DNA from: a virus
Reading direction: 5' to 3' (one strand)
IMG/VR virus record: IMGVR_UViG_3300042309_000376
Coordinates: 1 to 37,474 of that record
Length of the DNA: 37,474 nucleotides
Shown here: positions 13,205-31,601 of the stretch, in pieces
How positions within the stretch are numbered: position 1 is the stretch's first letter
Layout: each line of letters starts with the position of its first letter
Made by a program: the position numbers and the translations under genes
The notes under the pieces: model-generated
What the model was told of the DNA's origin: nothing
Seen by the model: only the letters and a program-made list of their open reading frames with translations
Database searches by the model: none

Positions 13205-14206
13205 ATGGATTTTCTTAAGGACATTGTAAAAGAAATAGGAGGCGAGTATACCCAACTTGCTGCAGATATTGATGAAACTGAAACTTATGTGGACACGGGT
13301 TCGTACATTTTTAATGCTCTTGTATCCGGTAGCATATTTGGTGGTGTATCTGGGAATAAGATTACTGCAATCGCAGGCGAAACTTCTACTGGTAAGACTT
13401 TCTTCTCTCTTGCCGTTGTTAAAAACTTTCTTGATAATAACCCTACTGGATATTGTCTGTATTTTGATACTGAGGCAGCAATTACAAAGTCTCTTCTGGA
13501 AAGTCGTGGAATTGATACATCAAGACTTGTTGTGGTTAATGTAGTCACAGTGGAAGAATTTCGCACCAAAGCACTTAAGGCAGTAGATATTTACCTAAAA
13601 GCAAAAGAGGATGAAAGAAAACCTTGTATGTTTGTCCTAGATTCTTTGGGAATGCTTTCTACAAATAAGGAAATTAACGATGCTCTTGCGGAAAAAGATA
13701 CGCGGGATATGACGAAGGCACAATTAATTAAGGGTGCTTTCAGAATGTTGACTCTTAAGTTGGGTCAGGCAAAGATTCCAATGCTGGTGACCAATCACAC
13801 CTACGAAAGTATGAGTCTTTATGGTGGTAAGCAAATGAGCGGTGGAAGTGGATTGCAATATTCCGCATCCACAATCATCTACCTTTCCAAGTCAAAGGAA
13901 AAAGATGGTACTGAAGTAATTGGAAACATCATTAAAGCAAAAACATTCAAGTCCCGTTTAAGTAAAGAGAATCAAGATGTTGAGATTCGTCTCTATTATG
14001 ATGAACGAGGTCTGGATCGTTATTATGGTCTTCTTGAACTTGGTGAACTTGGTGGAATGTGGAAGAATACTGCTGGTCGCTATGAGATGGATGGTAAGAA
14101 ACTTTATGCTAAACAAATCCTAAAAGAACCGGAAATTTATTTTACCCCAGAAGTAATGGAAAAACTTGATGTAATTGCTAAGGGTGAGTTTAGTTATGGT
14201 TCATGA
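13205..14206 (+). CDS. uvsX: UvsX RecA-like recombinase
   Basis: This strand-exchange protein coats single-stranded DNA for recombination-dependent replication and repair. Its 333 residues have Walker A GETSTGKT (58-65), Walker B CMFVLDSLGML and the RecA-core segments MLVTNHTYES and GGSGLQYSAS. Acidic residues after Walker A (YFDTEAA) fit the catalytic Glu. It lies downstream of gp43, as usual in cyanophages, and overlaps the next gene by four bases (ATGA). Confidence 0.95.
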   Translation: MDFLKDIVKEIGGEYTQLAADIDETETYVDTGSYIFNALVSGSIFGGVSGNKITAIAGETSTGKTFFSLAVVKNFLDNNPTGYCLYFDTEAAITKSLLESRGIDTSRLVVVNVVTVEEFRTKALKAVDIYLKAKEDERKPCMFVLDSLGMLSTNKEINDALAEKDTRDMTKAQLIKGAFRMLTLKLGQAKIPMLVTNHTYESMSLYGGKQMSGGSGLQYSASTIIYLSKSKEKDGTEVIGNIIKAKTFKSRLSKENQDVEIRLYYDERGLDRYYGLLELGELGGMWKNTAGRYEMDGKKLYAKQILKEPEIYFTPEVMEKLDVIAKGEFSYGS

Positions 14207-14748
14207 AGAATATTCGTATCATAAAAACCGGAATTGATGTATCTAAAATACTAGAGCAACTCAAGCAACATCCTGAAGACTGGGGATCTCAAAAAAATAT
14301 TGAAGACTCCGAACAATTAGATCCCACAGAATATACCGTTACTGTTGATGTCCTACAACTCATAATGGGTGGAGTTGAAAAAGAAGGGCAATATGTGGGG
14401 AATACTGAAATATGTATTAAAACACCTGCATATGAAAAGCACACGGAGATTCTTAATTACTTGGGAAAGTATTTTAAGAAACTTCGTCGTTGTGGATTTC
14501 TTGCACTTCCGGTTGGTGAAATTGTAGGTTCTCATATTGATGAAGGAACTTATTATCTTACGAAAGATAGATACCATCTTTCCATTCAGGGAAAATACGA
14601 GTATACTGTTGGGGACGAAACATCAATTATTGAACCCGGAACACTCTTTTGGTTCAATAATAAACTACCTCATAAGGCAGTTAATATTGGCGACAACATT
14701 AGAATCACTTTTGTATTCGATGTTCCGCATCACAAACGAAATCTTTAA
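14203..14748 (+). CDS. 2OG-Fe(II) hydroxylase-like protein (aspartyl/asparaginyl type)
   Basis: This 181-residue protein carries the iron-ligand pattern of 2-oxoglutarate oxygenases: SHID (H111, D113) and, at the right distance, PHKAVN (H157). R167 in IRITFVFDVPH could bind 2-oxoglutarate. RYHLSIQGKYEY and PGTLFWFNN give the double-stranded beta-helix look of the aspartyl/asparaginyl beta-hydroxylase family. Such enzymes hydroxylate protein side chains; the target here is unknown. It is translationally coupled to uvsX and followed by gp41 after 8 bases, so it is made with the replisome. Confidence 0.8.
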   Translation: MKNIRIIKTGIDVSKILEQLKQHPEDWGSQKNIEDSEQLDPTEYTVTVDVLQLIMGGVEKEGQYVGNTEICIKTPAYEKHTEILNYLGKYFKKLRRCGFLALPVGEIVGSHIDEGTYYLTKDRYHLSIQGKYEYTVGDETSIIEPGTLFWFNNKLPHKAVNIGDNIRITFVFDVPHHKRNL

Positions 14749-14756
14749 TTAAAATA

Positions 14757-16133
14757 ATGGAACGACTTGAACTTACAATCCTTAGAAACTTAATATTTAA
14801 TGAAGATTATGCCCGAAAAGTCGTTCCATTTATTCAACCAGAATATTTCGAGCAAAGAATAGAAAAAATTGTATTTGAGGAAACTGTTCAATTCATTGCG
14901 AAGTATAATTCTTCTATCACTATTGAAGCACTTGGAATTGAGATTGATAATCGCAGAGATTTAACAGAATCTGAAAATAAAGATATTTCGGATTTGGTCT
15001 CTAAACTTCACAATGCTCCAGTAGAGAATCAGTGGGTAATTGATACTACAGAAAAGTGGTGTCGTGACCGTGCTATTTACCTAGCACTTATGGAATCTAT
15101 TCATATTGCCGATGGTAAAGATGAGAAAAAAGGTAGAGATGCTATTCCCAGTATTCTTTCGGATGCTTTATCGGTATCTTTTGATAATAATATAGGTCAC
15201 GATTATCTTCAGAATTATGAGGAACGATATGAGTATTATCATAGGAAGGAGGATAAAATTCCTTTCGATTTGGAATTCTTCAACAAAATTACAAAGGGTG
15301 GACTCCCAAACAAAACTCTTAATATTTGTTTAGCTGGAACCGGAACAGGCAAAAGTTTGTTTATGTGTCATTTTGCGTCATCAGTTCTTCTTCAGGGTAA
15401 AAATGTTTTGTATATTACTCTAGAAATGGCAGAGGAAAAAATTGCAGAACGAATTGATGCAAATCTCTTAAATGTTCCTATTCAACAACTAGCAGATCTT
15501 CCTCGTCAAATGTTTGAAACTAAGGTGAATGGTATTTCCAAGAAAACCCAAGGAACCTTAATTATCAAAGAGTATCCAACTGCTTCTGCACACTCTGGAC
15601 ATTTTAAAGCACTTCTAAACGAACTTGCACTTAAAAAGTCATTCAGACCGGATATTATCTTTATCGATTATCTCAATATTTGTTCTTCATCAAGATTTAA
15701 AGGGGGAAGTAATATTAACTCCTATACCCTCATTAAGTCAATCGCAGAAGAACTTCGTGGTTTGGCAGTTGAGTTTAATGTTCCAATTTGTAGTGCGACA
15801 CAGACTACTAGAAGTGGATTTGCATCTTCTGATGTAGAAATAACTGATACGAGTGAGTCGTTCGGACTTCCTGCTACTGCCGACCTTATGTTTGCTCTTA
15901 TTAGCACTGAGGAACTTGAAGATCTTGGACAAATTATGGTTAAACAACTTAAGAATAGGTATAATGATCCAACTATGAATAAAAGATTTGTGGTTGGTAT
16001 CGACAGAGCAAAAATGAGACTTTATGATGTAGAACAGTCAGCACAAAATGACATACTTGACTCTGGTAAAGAAAAGGAGTATAATGACGAAGAAAGAAAA
16101 CCTAAAAAATCATTTGAGGGATTTAAATTCTAA
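14757..16133 (+). CDS. gp41: Replicative DNA helicase, T4 gp41 (DnaB type)
   Basis: This hexameric 5'-3' helicase of the primosome partners the primase gp61 encoded at 22318. Its 458 residues include Walker A GTGTGKS (about 194-200), VLYITLEMAEEKIAERID (the DnaB H1a region), the Walker B IIFIDYLNICSS and SATQTTRSG. The length is near that of T4 gp41 (475). The region before the ATPase core has the expected helical N-terminal domain. Confidence 0.96.
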   Translation: MERLELTILRNLIFNEDYARKVVPFIQPEYFEQRIEKIVFEETVQFIAKYNSSITIEALGIEIDNRRDLTESENKDISDLVSKLHNAPVENQWVIDTTEKWCRDRAIYLALMESIHIADGKDEKKGRDAIPSILSDALSVSFDNNIGHDYLQNYEERYEYYHRKEDKIPFDLEFFNKITKGGLPNKTLNICLAGTGTGKSLFMCHFASSVLLQGKNVLYITLEMAEEKIAERIDANLLNVPIQQLADLPRQMFETKVNGISKKTQGTLIIKEYPTASAHSGHFKALLNELALKKSFRPDIIFIDYLNICSSSRFKGGSNINSYTLIKSIAEELRGLAVEFNVPICSATQTTRSGFASSDVEITDTSESFGLPATADLMFALISTEELEDLGQIMVKQLKNRYNDPTMNKRFVVGIDRAKMRLYDVEQSAQNDILDSGKEKEYNDEERKPKKSFEGFKF

Positions 16134-16134
16134 T

Positions 16135-16548
16135 ATGACCCAAGTTATCGATACAAACAAATATATTGAGTTCGTTCGTCAAACCACAAGTCCCGCAAGT
16201 AGTGACTTTGCGGAACTTCTTGCGCGACTAACTGAACTTGAGACATCCGCTGATGCTGATGTTCCTCGTCTTATGACTGCTGCTTTTGGTATTAGTGCAG
16301 AAGCAGGAGAGTTCACTGAAGTTATTAAAAAAATCTTCTTGCAGGGTAAACCTTACAACGAAGATAATGCTTTTCACCTAAAGCGTGAATTGGGTGATAT
16401 TTGTTGGTATGTTGCTCAAGCATGTATGGCACTAGATACCACTTTTGAAGAAGTACTCCAAATGAACTATGAGAAACTGAGTGCTCGTTACCCTGAAGGA
16501 ACTTTTGATGTATTCCGCAGTGAAAATCGTGTTGATGGTGATATCTAA
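16135..16548 (+). CDS. mazG: MazG-like nucleotide pyrophosphohydrolase
   Basis: From ATG 16135, one base after the gp41 stop, this protein has 137 residues. The all-alpha NTP pyrophosphohydrolase motif is visible as EAGEFTEV followed by KRELGDICWYVAQA, which gives the ExxE and ExxD metal ligands. Phage MazG has been proposed to hydrolyse dNTPs or (p)ppGpp-type signals; the substrate cannot be told here. A longer frame upstream (from 16048) overlaps gp41 and has no MazG character. The stop codon overlaps a CTAAATA motif. Confidence 0.88.
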   Translation: MTQVIDTNKYIEFVRQTTSPASSDFAELLARLTELETSADADVPRLMTAAFGISAEAGEFTEVIKKIFLQGKPYNEDNAFHLKRELGDICWYVAQACMALDTTFEEVLQMNYEKLSARYPEGTFDVFRSENRVDGDI

Positions 16549-16572
16549 ATAGTATACTATAGTAATCTGATT

Positions 16573-16599
16573 GGGGGAGTAATAATTACTCCCCCTTTT
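16573..16599 (+). terminator. Strong terminator after mazG
   Basis: A perfect 11-bp inverted repeat (GGGGGAGTAAT, 16573-16583, and ATTACTCCCCC, 16585-16595) is followed by TTTT. It should end the long operon that starts at 9957. The very tight centre means the loop opens to about 3-5 bases in RNA. Confidence 0.9.
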
Positions 16600-16620
16600 C
16601 AATATAATAAATATTGAAAA
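16596..16620. promoter_or_regulatory. AT-rich inverted repeat with a late-promoter-like core
   Basis: TTTTCAATAT (16596-16605) and ATATTGAAAA (16611-16620) form a perfect 10-bp inverted repeat around AATAA. AATAAATA (16606-16613), a T4-late-promoter-like sequence, spans the centre. It begins within the T-tract of the terminator and lies 17 bases before the next gene, so it could be a late promoter or an operator. Confidence 0.5.
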
Positions 16621-16636
16621 AATACAATTTGTATAA

Positions 16637-16885
16637 ATGAAAGACCTCCAAGAGTTTCTTAATGCTATTATTAATATTTTCACCACTAAAAAATCATTAC
16701 CAAAAGATGTACTAAATGATTTTATCAAGTATTTTTATTTTACTCTTGATAAGGAAATAAAATCAAATAAGTCTGAAGTATTAAAGAATAAATATATTAA
16801 GATTAGAAAAAATGGTCTTAACTACATTATTGATAATAAAGATACAATAATGTTGAATATTCGCAAGAAAAAATTAAGTAAGTAA
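16637..16885 (+). CDS. Small Lys/Asn-rich hypothetical protein
   Basis: This 82-residue basic protein is rich in Lys, Asn and Ile. Its start, MKDLQEFLNAI, is a weak echo of the MKSFxQFI N-termini in the neighbouring genes. The stop TAA shares its last base with the next ATG, which supports a real, coupled gene. No domain is recognised. Confidence 0.6.
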   Translation: MKDLQEFLNAIINIFTTKKSLPKDVLNDFIKYFYFTLDKEIKSNKSEVLKNKYIKIRKNGLNYIIDNKDTIMLNIRKKKLSK

Positions 16886-18309
16886 TGAAAAGTTTTCACC
16901 AATTCATATCGGAAGCAACCGCATCAGCAGACCAAGCTAAACGACTTGGATTGCAAGGTGATAATCACGGTGGTTGGTATGATAGAGCAACCGGAGAGTT
17001 TGTTGCTAAAACCGAAGGTGGAAAGTTAAAATTTTACAATAAGAGACAGAGAATTCCCGGAAAGGATCCTAATCAAACAGAACATGAAAAGAATGTTCCT
17101 TCTCCAAGTTATAATGATCCTAATGCCCAACAACCTCAACCCCAACCTCAACTAGAACCTGAACCAGCAACTGAGCAGCAACCAGTATCACAAGAACTAC
17201 AAGAACCAATAGCAACTCCTCCACCAGTTCCTAAGACCAAAGGAACTCTTACGGTTGCTTTTGGTCGTTTTAATCCACCACATTCGGGTCATTTGCAGTT
17301 AATGGACACTGCTGCAGCATCGGCAGAACAAGAAGGTAGTGACTATATTATTGTACCTTCTCGTAGTCAGGATAAGAAAAAGAATCCATTAGATCCTGAT
17401 ACGAAAATTTCTATGATGAGGCGGTTGTTTCCTGCTCATAGTGAAAGAATAGTGAACGATCCTGCAAATATTACTATTTTTGATGTTCTTAAAAAGGCAC
17501 ACAATGATGGATATACGAATGTTAGAATCGTGGGTGGTTCTGACCGTGTAAAAGAGTTTGAGAAACTTTCTAATAATTATAATGGACAACTGTATGCTTT
17601 TGATACTATTGAGGTAATATCGGCGGGAGATGAGGATCCAGATTCAAAAAGTGTTGAAGGAATATCTTCTTCCCGAATGAGACTTGCTGTTGCGGAGAAT
17701 GATTTCAAAACTTATTATAATCATCTTTATACAGAAGAACCAATTATTGATCCAGAAACTGGTGAGCAAATAATGCAAGAAGATCCACAAACTGGTGAGA
17801 TGATTCCCGCAACACAAATTGTTCCTCTTGTTGATAGAAAAACTGCTAAACAAATGTTTGCTGATATGCAAGCGACAATGGGTATTAATGAGAACTGGAG
17901 TCTCTGGGAAATTGCACCCAAGTTTGATTACCAGACTCTTCGTGAGAATTATGTTTCCGAAAAAATCTTTCAAATCGGACAACTGGTTGAAAATTTAAAT
18001 ACTGGAATTGTTGGAAGAATTATTCGTCGTGGAACTAACTATTTAATTTATGTAACTGAATCTAATATGATGTTTAAGTCCTGGATTACGGATGTGATGG
18101 AAACCAAAAAATATACCGAAGTTAAAATGGATAGTAAGATGAGAGAACCCGGAAAACCAAATACTTTAGTTGGAACTTCTGGATTCTATAAGTATGTTGC
18201 GGACATGACACCTCAAGGAGATGGGTCAAATCTACAGTACGGAGCAAAACCCTATCGGGGATATAAAGTATCTAATATCAGGGAGTTTATAAATAAGTAT
18301 AGAAAATAG
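16885..18309 (+). CDS. Capsid-targeted nucleotidyltransferase-domain protein
   Basis: This 474-residue multidomain protein starts MKSFHQFISEA, very near the T4 internal-protein capsid-targeting sequence MKTYQEFIAEA. It includes a fitting prohead-protease site, ISE before A11. A segment NHGGWYDRATGEFVAK and a Gln/Pro/Glu-rich linker (residues 80-115) follow. Residues about 120-285 are a cytidylyltransferase/NMN-adenylyltransferase-type domain with GRFNPPHSGH (nucleotide-binding HxGH, H133-H136), VPSRSQDKKKNPL, VGGSDR and ISSSRMR. The C-terminal 130 residues hold a small beta domain (VENLNTGIVGRIIRRGTNY). The enzyme fold is well supported; NMN as substrate is a guess. Packaging in the head is inferred from the N-terminus. 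If true, the enzyme could enter the host with the DNA. Confidence 0.85.
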   Translation: MKSFHQFISEATASADQAKRLGLQGDNHGGWYDRATGEFVAKTEGGKLKFYNKRQRIPGKDPNQTEHEKNVPSPSYNDPNAQQPQPQPQLEPEPATEQQPVSQELQEPIATPPPVPKTKGTLTVAFGRFNPPHSGHLQLMDTAAASAEQEGSDYIIVPSRSQDKKKNPLDPDTKISMMRRLFPAHSERIVNDPANITIFDVLKKAHNDGYTNVRIVGGSDRVKEFEKLSNNYNGQLYAFDTIEVISAGDEDPDSKSVEGISSSRMRLAVAENDFKTYYNHLYTEEPIIDPETGEQIMQEDPQTGEMIPATQIVPLVDRKTAKQMFADMQATMGINENWSLWEIAPKFDYQTLRENYVSEKIFQIGQLVENLNTGIVGRIIRRGTNYLIYVTESNMMFKSWITDVMETKKYTEVKMDSKMREPGKPNTLVGTSGFYKYVADMTPQGDGSNLQYGAKPYRGYKVSNIREFINKYRK

Positions 18310-18329
18310 TAAAGTAGTAAAATCTTAAT

Positions 18330-19880
18330 ATGAAAAATCATATTGCCGAAGATCTGCCAGCAAGAAAATTTGCTCCTGCTGCCGCTGGTGCTGCTCCTGT
18401 TGATAGGGATAAAAATAAAGGAAAGACTCCAGAGGAAAGAGCAAAGCAGGCAGTATATGATATTCGTTATAAAGCAAGAAGAGAAGATATTCCTCTTCGC
18501 CAGGCATATTCTGAATACATGCAAAATAGTAGCATGGGTGGACAAGAAAGAAATATTGTCAAGCAAAGATTATTCGGTAAAGAGGGTGGTGGTATGAGAG
18601 CAGAAGATTTTAATCCAATCTTTAAGAATGTGGCATCTGATAATGTCGCCAAAGCACTCTTTAAGGTTTTTGTAGAAGGAACAGAACAAGAACCAGAATC
18701 AATTTATTTAACCTATCTTGAAGAATTAGATACACCAGAGCACAGAAAGTATAAGGTAAGAGTAACCGATAAGAATACTAAAAGGTCTTATGTAAGAATG
18801 GCAACCCGTGAGAAAATTAATCAACTTCGTGCAAATCCAAATATTGAATCAGTTGAGATGACCGAATATGGTGAACCTTATGAGGGTGAGAGAAAGAAAG
18901 GTTCTCAGACCGCAAGAGTTGCTGCAGGTAGAGGATTGGATCCTGTAGGTCAAGAAGATTCTGATATTAATAATGATGGTAAGGTAAACAAGACTGATGA
19001 TTACCTTAAGAATCGTCGTAACAAAATTGGTTCGGCAATTGCAACTCGTAAAGAAGAGTTTATTCATGAAGCGGAAACCGAAGATTCTAACACCCAAAAA
19101 CTTGATTATAAAAAGGGAAAAGTTAAGAATAAAGTAACCATTGCCCCAACCCAAGATAAAAGTGTTGGACTAATGGCACATAATGAACTTGAGGGTGAAT
19201 TGATTGTCGAAAATGGATACTCTAAGTTTCTTAAAAAAGTTCATTCTCTTCAAGAAAAATCAGTAAGTCAAAATCAACAGCAACTTGCTGGAATGGCACT
19301 TGCTTATTTGAGAGGTGAAATGCCTGATGCAAGTGAAGAAGTTAAGCAAATGGCAAAGATGGGTGAGAAAAAACTTCGTGATTTTGCCAAAACCAAGCAC
19401 AAAGGTCTTCCTGAAAAAGTAAAGGAAGAAATGGAATGTGGTTCTGATGATAAGAAAAAAAAGAATGGTGAAGAGGAAGATCCCCGTTCTATGAAGACAA
19501 AGGTGAATCTTGTAAAGAACAAATTGAGGGCAATGGGTCTTAAGATGTCTTATGAACCAGAAGGTGAAATGGTTGATGAGGCAAGAGAAGAAGAAAAGAG
19601 AGGACTTGGTTCTACTGGAGCACAAAGACAAAGACAAAAATCTGGTGAAGAAGGACCTACTGGTAGAAGACCTGTAACTTCATATTCTGGTGGACAAAAT
19701 CCTCAGTTAAGAGGTAAAGAAGGTAAAACAAAGGAGCAGAGGAGGTCAGCGAGTCGTAGATATATCGATCAACCAGGTGGAATTTATGCTGCTCCAGAAA
19801 ACAAACAAGGTGAAGGTAGATACGCAAAAATGCAAGCGAAGAAAAGAGATCAATCACATATGAGTTCAAGGTTTGATTGA
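18330..19880 (+). CDS. Large basic/acidic structural protein with EF-hand-like loop and DUF3008-like segment
   Basis: This 516-residue, highly charged, mostly disordered-looking protein holds several modules. An EF-hand/dockerin-like calcium loop DINNDGKVNKTDD spans 212-224. RKEEFIHEAE near residue 250 resembles an internal capsid-targeting motif with a protease site (IHE before A). A segment from about 314 to 370 (QQLAGMALAYLRGE, then LRDFAKTKHKGLPEKVKEE) resembles DUF3008. The C-terminal 110 residues are Arg/Gly/Gln-rich. It lies directly after the nucleotidyltransferase protein and is probably a packaged or head-associated protein. The modules are visible; their assignments are from memory. 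Confidence 0.75.
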   Translation: MKNHIAEDLPARKFAPAAAGAAPVDRDKNKGKTPEERAKQAVYDIRYKARREDIPLRQAYSEYMQNSSMGGQERNIVKQRLFGKEGGGMRAEDFNPIFKNVASDNVAKALFKVFVEGTEQEPESIYLTYLEELDTPEHRKYKVRVTDKNTKRSYVRMATREKINQLRANPNIESVEMTEYGEPYEGERKKGSQTARVAAGRGLDPVGQEDSDINNDGKVNKTDDYLKNRRNKIGSAIATRKEEFIHEAETEDSNTQKLDYKKGKVKNKVTIAPTQDKSVGLMAHNELEGELIVENGYSKFLKKVHSLQEKSVSQNQQQLAGMALAYLRGEMPDASEEVKQMAKMGEKKLRDFAKTKHKGLPEKVKEEMECGSDDKKKKNGEEEDPRSMKTKVNLVKNKLRAMGLKMSYEPEGEMVDEAREEEKRGLGSTGAQRQRQKSGEEGPTGRRPVTSYSGGQNPQLRGKEGKTKEQRRSASRRYIDQPGGIYAAPENKQGEGRYAKMQAKKRDQSHMSSRFD

Positions 19881-20102: not shown

Positions 20103-20275
20103 TGTGGGTCTGGGAATGTATACTTCTAAACTGGGGTATTACAGTCTTATTGGCGATTTTATTAGCAACTTCAGAACTACTAGATGAAATACCATCAGTA
20201 AAGGCAAATAGCATTCATAGGTTTGTTTATAACTTTTTAAAAGTTGTAACAAGCAAAAAAAGCAAGGGAGACTAA
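20102..20275 (+). CDS. Small membrane protein
   Basis: A 57-residue reading frame starts at ATG 20102 (TAATG overlap) and ends at TAA 20273-20275. It begins MWVWECILLNWGITVLLAIL, which gives one membrane span of about 20 residues. A basic tail follows and ends with SKKSKGD. The stop codon lies inside the left arm and loop junction of the terminator. The tight coupling supports a real gene; the function is unknown. Confidence 0.65.
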   Translation: MWVWECILLNWGITVLLAILLATSELLDEIPSVKANSIHRFVYNFLKVVTSKKSKGD

Positions 20276-20292
20276 CCCAGTCTCCTTTTTTT
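20267..20292 (+). terminator. Rho-independent terminator
   Basis: GGAGACT (20267-20273) pairs with AGTCTCC (20279-20285) around AACCC, then seven T. The left arm includes the first base of the preceding stop codon, and the T-tract runs straight into a late promoter. Confidence 0.9.
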
Positions 20293-28047: not shown

Positions 28048-29439
28048 ATGAAGTCCTTTAGTCAGTTTTTGCAAGAGTCATATTTGAGTGAAGAAGAAGC
28101 GAGACAAGGTTCTTTGATGACTCGTAGTGGAAAACCCCAAGATTTTAGAAATCCAAAAAAAGTTCCTTTTACTGCAACTGACCCTACCCCTACTCCAGCG
28201 TCTAGAAGACTTCCTGCTGCTGCTCCAGATGCACCAAAAACACCCTCTGGACAATTAGAAATTCCTGAACCAAAAACAACTAAAGTTTCTGGAACCAGTG
28301 TTAGAAGCGCAGGAGAAGTTCGTCAACCATCTTTACTTACAAAATCAGGTGGAGCACAAGATTTTACAAAAGCAGGTAAAGGGAGAGTTCCATTTACATC
28401 ATCCGAACCAGTAAAAGCAACAAAGCGTCTTTCTGCGGGTGCTCCAGAAGCACCAAAAGCATCTTCTGGTCAAATGGATATTGATTTTAATGCTAAACCA
28501 AATAAAGGTGGAGCACTTGTAAAAACATCTTCAAGCACTCCTGCAACTAAAGCAGGTAAATTAGCAACAACATCTTCCACCAAACCCGCAACAAATCCAC
28601 CAATTCAAGCAGTAAATGTAAAAGATATTACTAAAAAACCAAAGGCACTTCCTGCTGCTAAATCATCAGTAGGAAAACCACCAGCAGGTGTGAAACCCTC
28701 AGGCGTAAAAGGTTTGCGGGGTGTTGGTGGTAAAGCATTGGGTGTTGCCGGGGCTGGTCTTGAAGGTGGAATTGAGTATAAATCGCAGAGAGATAGAGGT
28801 AGAACTAGAGCGGGTGCTTTAGGTGGAGCATCTTCTGCGGTTGGTGGTGGATTGACTGGAGCAAAAGCAGGCGCATTGACTGGTGCTAAATTAGGTTCTG
28901 TTTTAGGTCCAAAGGGTGCTGCCGCTGGTGCAGTAATTGGCGGTATTGGTGGATATGTTGCCGGATCTGAATTGGGAAAAAAGGGATTTGAAACTGTTGC
29001 TGGTGCCACCAAAAAGGAAAAGGCCGCAATGGCACAAGCAAATCGCCAGAGACAAGCAGGAACTGCAGTTAAAGGTATTGGGGGTAAAACTACATTCAGT
29101 CAAACCAAACCAGGTGGTCCTGCATTTATGTCAACAGGTTCTGGATCGCAAAGAAAAACAGTTCAACTTGCCAAGACTGGTGTAGTTCAAAGAGGTGGGC
29201 AATCTGTTGCGGGTAATCTTGCATTTAAAGGTGGTAAAGCAGTTTATAAGGCAGGCCCAAGTGCTCAATCACTTGCTAAAACTTCTTCTAATCCATTAGA
29301 AAGAATTGGAAGAACTATGTTTGCAGGTGCATATAAGAAATCAGATGCCGCCAATGCCGCCAAGAAACTTGCTACCGCAAGACAATCAGATGCTGCTCGT
29401 AATAAAGCACTTGGAGTAAAAGCAAAACCAGCAGGTTGA
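28048..29439 (+). CDS. Basic Gly/Ala-rich protein with capsid-targeting N-terminus
   Basis: This 463-residue protein begins MKSFSQFLQESYLSEEEA. It resembles the T4 internal-protein targeting peptide, with two Leu-x-Glu sites (LQE, LSE) where the gp21-type protease could cut. Two imperfect copies of a unit follow: QGSLMTRSGKPQDFRNPKK and QPSLLTKSGGAQDFTKAGK, each continuing VPFT and then a RRLPAAAPDAPK-like segment. A glycine-zipper stretch of about 60 residues (GAKAGALTGAKLGSVLGPKG and on) could insert into or span a membrane. The rest is very basic. A packaged protein that meets DNA or the cell envelope fits; this is inference. Confidence 0.75.
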   Translation: MKSFSQFLQESYLSEEEARQGSLMTRSGKPQDFRNPKKVPFTATDPTPTPASRRLPAAAPDAPKTPSGQLEIPEPKTTKVSGTSVRSAGEVRQPSLLTKSGGAQDFTKAGKGRVPFTSSEPVKATKRLSAGAPEAPKASSGQMDIDFNAKPNKGGALVKTSSSTPATKAGKLATTSSTKPATNPPIQAVNVKDITKKPKALPAAKSSVGKPPAGVKPSGVKGLRGVGGKALGVAGAGLEGGIEYKSQRDRGRTRAGALGGASSAVGGGLTGAKAGALTGAKLGSVLGPKGAAAGAVIGGIGGYVAGSELGKKGFETVAGATKKEKAAMAQANRQRQAGTAVKGIGGKTTFSQTKPGGPAFMSTGSGSQRKTVQLAKTGVVQRGGQSVAGNLAFKGGKAVYKAGPSAQSLAKTSSNPLERIGRTMFAGAYKKSDAANAAKKLATARQSDAARNKALGVKAKPAG

Positions 29440-30913: not shown

Positions 30914-31339
30914 TTAAGACACCTGAGAACTCTTAAGTACCAGTTCATAAATCCTATCCACTTCACTAGAAAAGAATTTACCTTCTACATTTGTGTTGTA
31001 ATAGTCTTCTCTTAAGATTACATCACGCTTGAACTGTTCCATTGTTTCATAAAAACTCATAGATTTCTTATGAGGACATAGGTATAAGATTTCTCTAGAG
31101 AACTTATCTTTACCTAGTTCTTTTACATCCTCTTTAAGTTCATCACACGAACCCCAATAATCAATCCAGTCACTTTCTTTGGTTTTTCTACGGCCGGTCT
31201 TACGATCTTTTTGACGAGTCCAGAAATGTTTTTTACCAATGTATTTTTTATGATTGGTTAAATTTGTAATGAGATAAACAAATCCTTCCATTCCTTTTGG
31301 TACATCCGTAAAGTCCACACTATTATACTTCCAAGTCAT
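30914..31339 (-). CDS. GIY-YIG-like endonuclease, likely homing type
   Basis: This is the only gene on the - strand. From the ATG at 31339 it has 141 residues: MTWKYNSVDF, then GFVYLITNLTNHKKYIGKK (variant GIY at 20-22 and YIG at 33-35) and W-R-rich text. SDWIDYWGSCDELKEDV and the FYETMEQF segment with a likely catalytic Glu complete the GIY-YIG core. An upstream start at 31414 adds residues with no family likeness. Such free-standing endonucleases in T4-like phages (Seg type) are selfish genes. The opposite strand and flanking hairpins mark it as an insertion. On the - strand CTAAATA (31366-31360) lies 20 bases upstream of the start. Confidence 0.8.
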   Translation of the reverse strand: MTWKYNSVDFTDVPKGMEGFVYLITNLTNHKKYIGKKHFWTRQKDRKTGRRKTKESDWIDYWGSCDELKEDVKELGKDKFSREILYLCPHKKSMSFYETMEQFKRDVILREDYYNTNVEGKFFSSEVDRIYELVLKSSQVS

Positions 31340-31397
31340 GATTAAGATTTTATATAAAATATTTAGAGTGTTGCAGAAACTCCTTGGAGATGATAGG

Positions 31398-31601
31398 ATG
31401 GTGAACAACAGCACTCCTAATATGACTCTTTTGGAACAGACTCTGAGAACATCACATGATTGGGCAATTGATCGTATTCATTATTTGAGTGAAAAGAATA
31501 TTGATGATGCTTATGCAATTCAGGCAGAGTTTAGAGAATGGATGAATCCTGATATCCCAGAACACGATGTTTTTTCACTGGAATACCTCGGAGACACTTA
31601 A
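31398..31601 (+). CDS. Small hypothetical protein
   Basis: From ATG 31398 (GGAG seven bases earlier with some extra spacing) this is a 67-residue protein beginning MVNNSTPNMTLLEQTLRTS. It contains DWAIDRIHYL and EFREWMNPDIPEHD. A longer frame from 31338 overlaps the - strand gene start and is less likely. No family is recognised. Confidence 0.6.
   Translation: MVNNSTPNMTLLEQTLRTSHDWAIDRIHYLSEKNIDDAYAIQAEFREWMNPDIPEHDVFSLEYLGDT

Follow-up and report, generated by a model that had tools for sequence, protein, structure and literature searches.

A cyanophage core NMNAT-like adenylyltransferase with a T4-like capsid-targeting sequence, predicted to be packaged in the phage head

Sullivan et al. 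(2010) described T4-GC190 as a 'putative citidylyltransferase', a cyanophage core protein present in purified S-SM1 virions (PMC3037559). Orthologues were detected in the virion proteomes of S-SCSM1 (ORF91; PMC9602691), S-SZBM1 (S-SZBM1_140, 2 peptides; PMC9146016) and S-CREM2 (gp154, 3 peptides; PMC10665884), and a particle-borne NMNAT was already discussed in two of these papers (PMC9602691 is one), with a warning about carry-over. Several groups, reporting both this enzyme and kinases from cyanophage virions, were unable to separate packaging from carry-over. For the internal protein IPIII of phage T4, experiments showed that residues 4 and 7 mainly govern targeting, and residues 8 and 10 processing (PMC9026906). 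Because virion detection and the NMNAT discussion are in print, the main idea of the original prediction, a virion-carried NMNAT-like enzyme, is already published; the packaged nucleotidyltransferase that it proposed is supported, but it had missed that the gene is a known core gene whose product occurs in virions. New here is the packaging rationale, and the literature searched, which covered few subscription journals, held no mention of a capsid-targeting sequence (CTS) on the T4-GC190 enzyme.

The window analysed is the whole stretch of 37,474 nucleotides from an uncultured virus. The enzyme gene is the plus-strand ORF 16885-18309 (474 aa; ATG at 16885, stop ending at 18309), and this ORF as well as the HSGH (residues 133-136) and ISSSRMR (residues 260-266) motifs were exactly as first described. 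The following features were assigned to the gene and its direct neighbours.

16637-16885, plus strand: upstream ORF of 82 aa, whose stop shares one base with the enzyme start (TAATG)
16885-16914, plus strand: CTS MKSFHQFISE, residues 1-10, with a predicted prohead-protease cut after E10 (I-S-E/A)
16927-17049, plus strand: leader module, residues about 15-55 (ADQAKRLGLQGDNHGGWYDRATGEFVAKTEGGKLKFYNKRQ), placed by alignment and leader profile matches
17050-17226, plus strand: low-complexity Pro/Gln-rich linker, residues about 56-114, variable across the family (pLDDT below 50 at residues 53-108)
17239-17892, plus strand: predicted adenylyltransferase domain, residues about 119-336, with GRFNPPHSGH, NPLDPDTK, GGSDR and ISSSRMR
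17911-18237, plus strand: C-terminal module, residues 343-451, a small beta barrel, SH3-like at best
18330-19880, plus strand: downstream gene, 516 aa, phrog_3326, with a DUF3008 segment

Judged by its sequence, the protein is a member of the cyanophage core cluster T4-GC190 / PHROG 395; it matched PHROG 395 ('cytidyltransferase') at E 3.9e-90. Relatives were found in 530 of 50,697 phage records, for the most part cyanomyoviruses, and 235 records aligned over at least 80% of its length. The closest sequenced isolate is S-SRM01 (57.6%), and IMG/VR contigs reached about 84% identity over the aligned positions. P-SSM2 gene 194, which carries the label T4-GC190, is 57% identical over 93%, and the S-SCSM1 orthologue 43% over 100%. 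With S-CREM2 gp154 as a query, a single IMG/VR relative was found.

The central domain matched PF01467 (E 4e-11; 43.7 bits against a cut-off of 21). Twelve residues (F126, G127, R128, F129, N130, P131, P132, G135, H136, S261, S263 and R266) were invariant in 81 aligned members; position 133 was T in 61 of these and H in 20, either being normal in the superfamily. An AlphaFold model built from 34 sequences was confident at residues 119-336 (pLDDT mostly 75-91) and poor elsewhere. Foldseek comparison of the model with the PDB ranked NMNAT/NaMNAT (NadD) structures best, from E 8.6e-7 upward, with FAD synthetases and PPATs among or behind them. Profile, conservation and AlphaFold/Foldseek results support the predicted adenylyltransferase fold of residues 119-336 with its invariant (H/T)xGH and SxSxxR motifs, as originally put forward, and the comparison of a predicted structure with NMNAT structures, proposed as a check, matched the NMNAT/NadD fold with the motif residues invariant. 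The domain is probably an active adenylyltransferase.

Its substrate is less certain. Across the 34 members, the NCBIfam models for NadR, NadD and CoaD matched 33, 25 and 19, respectively. The window protein itself scored 24 bits with TIGR00482 (cut-off 112.45) and 20.9 with TIGR01526 (cut-off 341.15), both curated NMNAT models, and 18.1 with the CoaD model TIGR01510 (cut-off 103.3). Neither the protein sequence nor the family profile gave a significant hit when searched against the PDB, the only relevant match being a cyanobacterial NadM at a non-significant E of 1.1. By VIA, PPAT (Z 13.2, rmsd 3.2, 159 aligned) and NadD (Z 12.9, rmsd 3.3, 164 aligned) tied. The layout of GRFxPxHxGH and NPL...K recalls NadM and NadR, CoaD having GTFDP instead; a likeness to CoaD is seen too in the segment that follows the second motif, SSSxxR...GD. 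A packaged enzyme acting on another substrate, such as phosphopantetheine (in CoA synthesis) or an acceptor that is a protein or a nucleic acid, so that the affected cofactor is not NAD, would agree with the level VIA scores, the 19 CoaD matches and the CoaD-like segment. However, the NadR and NadD models find more members, and at better E-values, the first motif and NPL...K are NadM/NadR-like and the weak PDB match is a NadM, and we regard a substrate other than NMN as a possible but lesser alternative. NMN or NaMN as the substrate has in our opinion an even chance. Because fold and motifs are present and NMNAT-type models fit best yet remain under their cut-offs, we call the protein an NMNAT-like adenylyltransferase and not an NMNAT. 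The suggested action on host NAD was thus borne out in that NMNAT-type profiles score best, but none reached its curated cut-off and PPAT structures fit equally well.

Residues 1-11 (MKSFHQFISEA) align without gaps with MKTYQEFIAEA of T4 IPII/IPIII, and the positions mapped in T4 correspond to F4, F7, I8 and E10. In the clade of the window protein, M1, K2, F4, F7 and E10 were invariant (81/81) and position 8 was I or L in 80 of 81 sequences; the divergent S-SM1 clade had a CTS in 80/80 loci. Over both divergent clades the CTS was kept in 160/160 IMG/VR loci, with one variant, at position 8. A strict motif was composed from the enzyme family and T4 ahead of the count in S-CREM2. Applied as a control to 52 kb of T4, it picked out IPII and IPIII and no other protein. 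In the complete S-CREM2 genome it matched 4 of 219 proteins (gp6 SAM lyase, gp13, gp14 kinase and gp154), against 0.06 expected from shuffled N-termini; none of 2000 shuffles reached 4. The capsid-targeting N-terminus that had been predicted is therefore confirmed by conservation at the T4-mapped positions and by an above-chance occurrence in S-CREM2.

Other proteins with such a start were seen. A second window protein (28048-29439, plus strand, 463 aa) starts MKSFSQFLQESYLSEEE and has a glycine-zipper-like segment; a homologue with a matching start is present in S-SRM01 (L094 25897-27240). This product is a candidate head-packaged, possibly membrane-active protein. A CTS protein of about 100 aa (MKSFxQFISESVNIAGDFNGNLYMN...) recurs in several cyanophages (L274, L286 and L288, position 1501; S-SZBM1 122311-122628) and is absent from the S-SZBM1 proteome detections. 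At position 1501 of L289, the CTS is fused to an apparent RlpA-type domain (VRITDPKTKKSITAPVVDRGPY), judged by eye.

All four strict-CTS proteins of S-CREM2 are among the 52 proteins of the published virion list (Fisher p 0.003). A looser CTS pattern was weaker (5 virion proteins out of 9, p 0.04), so it is the strict form that gives the association its strength. The virion list of S-CREM2, the single proteome compared gene by gene, contained 0 of 24 replication and metabolism enzymes, which argues against carry-over. In S-SZBM1, the strict motif matched just gp191 and gp192, both small and neither detected in virions; the strict motif therefore does not guarantee detection. The enzyme of that phage (gp140), which was detected, has a CTS that is one residue shorter (MRFRQFIIEA). 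The CTS-virion link seen in S-CREM2 is at best weakly replicated in S-SZBM1. The emPAI values reported for S-SZBM1 were 0.26 for the enzyme, 0.30 for the prohead protease and 27.64 for the major capsid protein (PMC9146016); as the enzyme lies near the protease and far under the capsid protein, it is probably present in few copies. An injected enzyme can be scarce, yet a small dose caps the NAD made within minutes. A gp21-type protease and a scaffold are present in S-CREM2 and S-SZBM1; the window is a 37-kb fragment in which head genes were not identified.

An infected-cell enzyme that adheres to particles, with a CTS-like start that is coincidental or otherwise used, would also explain virion detection. 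The proteome authors themselves raised carry-over, the peptides were few (3 in S-CREM2, 2 in S-SZBM1) and the enzyme of the P-HM1 clade lacks the tag. Against this stand detections in independent phages by different groups, the lack of replication and metabolism enzymes in the S-CREM2 virion list and the conservation of the CTS at positions mapped experimentally in T4, and we consider carry-over quite unlikely. The head packaging first suggested for this protein draws support from the conserved T4-like CTS, from orthologues in at least four other cyanophage virion proteomes and from the 0/24 count for replication and metabolism enzymes; packaging of the window enzyme in the head, predicted from its sequence and from virion presence reported for orthologues, is very probable.

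Behind the tag lies a module of about 35 residues with the pattern LGL...GHGGWYD...GEFVAKT..G.L. A profile made solely from the N-terminal leaders of the NMNAT-like enzyme family matched the S-CREM2 gp14 kinase (E 1.6e-12, with a second internal copy at 3e-7) and the gp12 nuclease (E 7.6e-12, module portion alone); the match to gp154 (5.7e-4) was via the tag only. There were zero matches in T4, P-HM1, S-SZBM1, C48C1 and HTVC008M. In gp12, a CTS-like stretch (RFASFMAEA) precedes the module by about 20 residues. Both gp14 and gp12 are virion proteins of S-CREM2. In pairwise searches, the gp14 leader found kinases of S-CRM01 and relatives (E 8e-5 to 0.03) and, weakly (E 0.3), the cytidylyltransferase N-termini of S-ShM2 and S-RIM14. 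As the leader module also occurs on a packaged kinase and a large nuclease of S-CREM2, tag and module together seem to form a loading leader that is reused on unrelated virion enzymes. We propose, with somewhat less than even confidence, that cyanomyoviruses use a transferable CTS plus a GHGGWYD/GEFVAKT leader of about 35 residues to load unrelated enzymes into the head for injection, an effector code that could be read from sequence. With the same reserve, it may cover the NMNAT-like transferase, an APH-like kinase and a large nuclease, and a SAM lyase with the CTS alone.

The SAM lyase, S-CREM2 gp6 (L083 3837-5081; PF23780, E 2e-19), has the strict CTS and was detected in virions; it is a candidate injected anti-restriction enzyme. 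The virion protein gp12 (L083 7704-10313) is annotated as 'CRISPR-associated endonuclease Cas9' and had no Pfam matches at E<=0.01; the Cas9 label looks doubtful.

In the C-terminal module, W400 and G-x-I-x-x-R-G-x-N are conserved, and its model had a pLDDT of 83-88 across module residues 11-60. No PDB match was found for the module at E<=0.001; of the weak rows obtained some were of SH3/KOW/Tudor type, so 'SH3-like' is tentative. In P-HM1-type phages the enzyme stands alone in 80/80 loci, as a protein of about 180-188 aa that lacks the strict tag, and in the loci inspected the following gene bears the C-terminal barrel at its start (P-HM1 L099 2980-4877; 80 IMG/VR loci, L184-L263). The P-HM1 barrel gene begins MKSLADFTKKSKVAEA, reminiscent of T4 IPI (MKTFKEFTSTTTPVSTITEA). 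This arrangement, one protein in the window and neighbouring genes in P-HM1, suggests that enzyme and barrel work together, and in P-HM1 the barrel partner might serve as the enzyme's carrier into the head. In a tree of the catalytic domain, the rows scored as tagged fall on one side of a branch with support 89/87, C48C1 being counted as untagged from its annotated start. C48C1 gene 89 has a GTG at L101 2944 that overlaps the upstream stop; read from this GTG it gives MIKNFSQYLLEEE and gains both a CTS and the beginning of the first catalytic motif, and the annotated start is probably misplaced. Since C48C1 is tagged if read from the GTG, the P-HM1 line may equally well have lost the tag.

The leader and barrel flanking the domain could also belong to a chiefly structural or core protein, in which the enzyme fold serves assembly or DNA/NTP binding and catalysis is incidental, and the virion-protein neighbours of this core gene in S-SCSM1 point the same way. 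However, stand-alone copies without extra modules occur in P-HM1-type and jumbo phages, and the superfamily motif residues are all invariant in the 81 sequences, as for a working enzyme; we find a structural role improbable and prefer an active enzyme.

The enzyme gene is preceded by uvsX, a 2OG-type oxygenase, gp41 helicase and mazG (window 13205-18309). The uvsX, gp41 and mazG neighbours were assigned through synteny with S-SM1 and S-SRM01, the oxygenase separately, and the location downstream of uvsX, gp41 and mazG matches the order in S-SM1, S-SRM01 and P-SSM2. The 82-aa ORF and the enzyme gene are likely to be translationally coupled via their one-base overlap, and P-SSM2 genes 193/194 overlap by one base as in the window. 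In S-SCSM1, the downstream gene is a neighbour in a virion-protein island (SSCSM1_89-93 are annotated virion proteins). Strong terminator-like hairpins at 16573-16595 and 20264-20288 flank the block 16637-19880; in the region 8 such hairpins were found against 2.8 expected. The bracketing hairpins suggest that the block is a separate transcription unit. A late-promoter link was sought via CTAAATA; it occurred 9 times against 7.6 expected and, being near expectation, was given no weight.

In S-SM1 and P-HM1, the gene 5' of the enzyme (T4-GC71; L095 4809-5783, L099 1784-2989 and L264 1-1179) has a KWDGAP motif resembling nucleic-acid ligases; no T4-GC71-like gene with KWDGAP was found at the equivalent window position. 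A search for an NAD-pathway partner gene near the enzyme in the window found none. The 'NAD synthetase' of S-SRM01 (L094 28969-29400, minus strand) was rejected as pathway support; it is a misannotated SegE-type GIY-YIG nuclease, as is its window homologue (30914-31414, minus strand), and the lead was therefore dropped.

With moderate confidence we favour a scheme in which a head-loaded T4-GC190 adenylyltransferase, ejected with the DNA, supplies NAD early. As the head is assembled, residues 1-10 would bind the scaffold core, as those of T4 internal proteins do, and the prohead protease would cut after E10. A few copies would be retained in the head and ejected along with the DNA. Once inside the cell, the central domain would move AMP from ATP onto a phosphorylated acceptor, for which NMN or NaMN is the likeliest candidate, and NAD would be topped up ahead of phage gene expression. 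This early NAD might support early metabolism or compensate for NAD lost to host defence. That the enzyme does raise NAD early in infection we put forward tentatively, as somewhat doubtful. If it makes NAD, cyanophages would adjust host cofactors before phage genes are read, in hosts that are among the ocean's most abundant photosynthetic cells. The sequence rule (CTS at T4-mapped positions plus the common module) predicts which enzymes are truly loaded and injected.

Compared with known systems, the enzyme shares the CTS pattern MKxFxxF(I/L)xE/A with T4 IPII and IPIII, cut and injection being predicted here; the mature part of the T4 proteins is unrelated, and the enzyme's copy number is probably low. 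The analogy drawn with T4 Alt holds for the route, that of an injected head protein, but not for the chemistry: Alt is an ADP-ribosyltransferase and the window protein an adenylyltransferase, with no ADP-ribosyltransferase domain among its Pfam matches at E<=1. With NadR, NadM and NadD it has the fold, (H/T)xGH, SxSxxR and the GRFxP start in common, but scores under each curated family cut-off; to our knowledge, cellular NMN/NaMN adenylyltransferases have neither the CTS and leader nor the C-terminal barrel. CoaD shares the fold (Z about 13) and differs by GTFDP in place of GRFNP, the window enzyme again scoring under the cut-off. If the protein is indeed an NMNAT, it would serve the end of the phage NAD+ reconstitution system NARP1 (Adps, Namat), NAD supply in infection. 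Its Namat is of the Nampt type and skips the NMNAT step (PMC12774641), and thus belongs to a different enzyme family. Finally, T4-GC190 members (P-SSM2 gp194, S-SM1 gp190, S-SCSM1 ORF91) have the CTS, leader, catalytic domain and C-terminal barrel in common with the window protein, which shows no defining difference from them and is an uncultured relative's copy.
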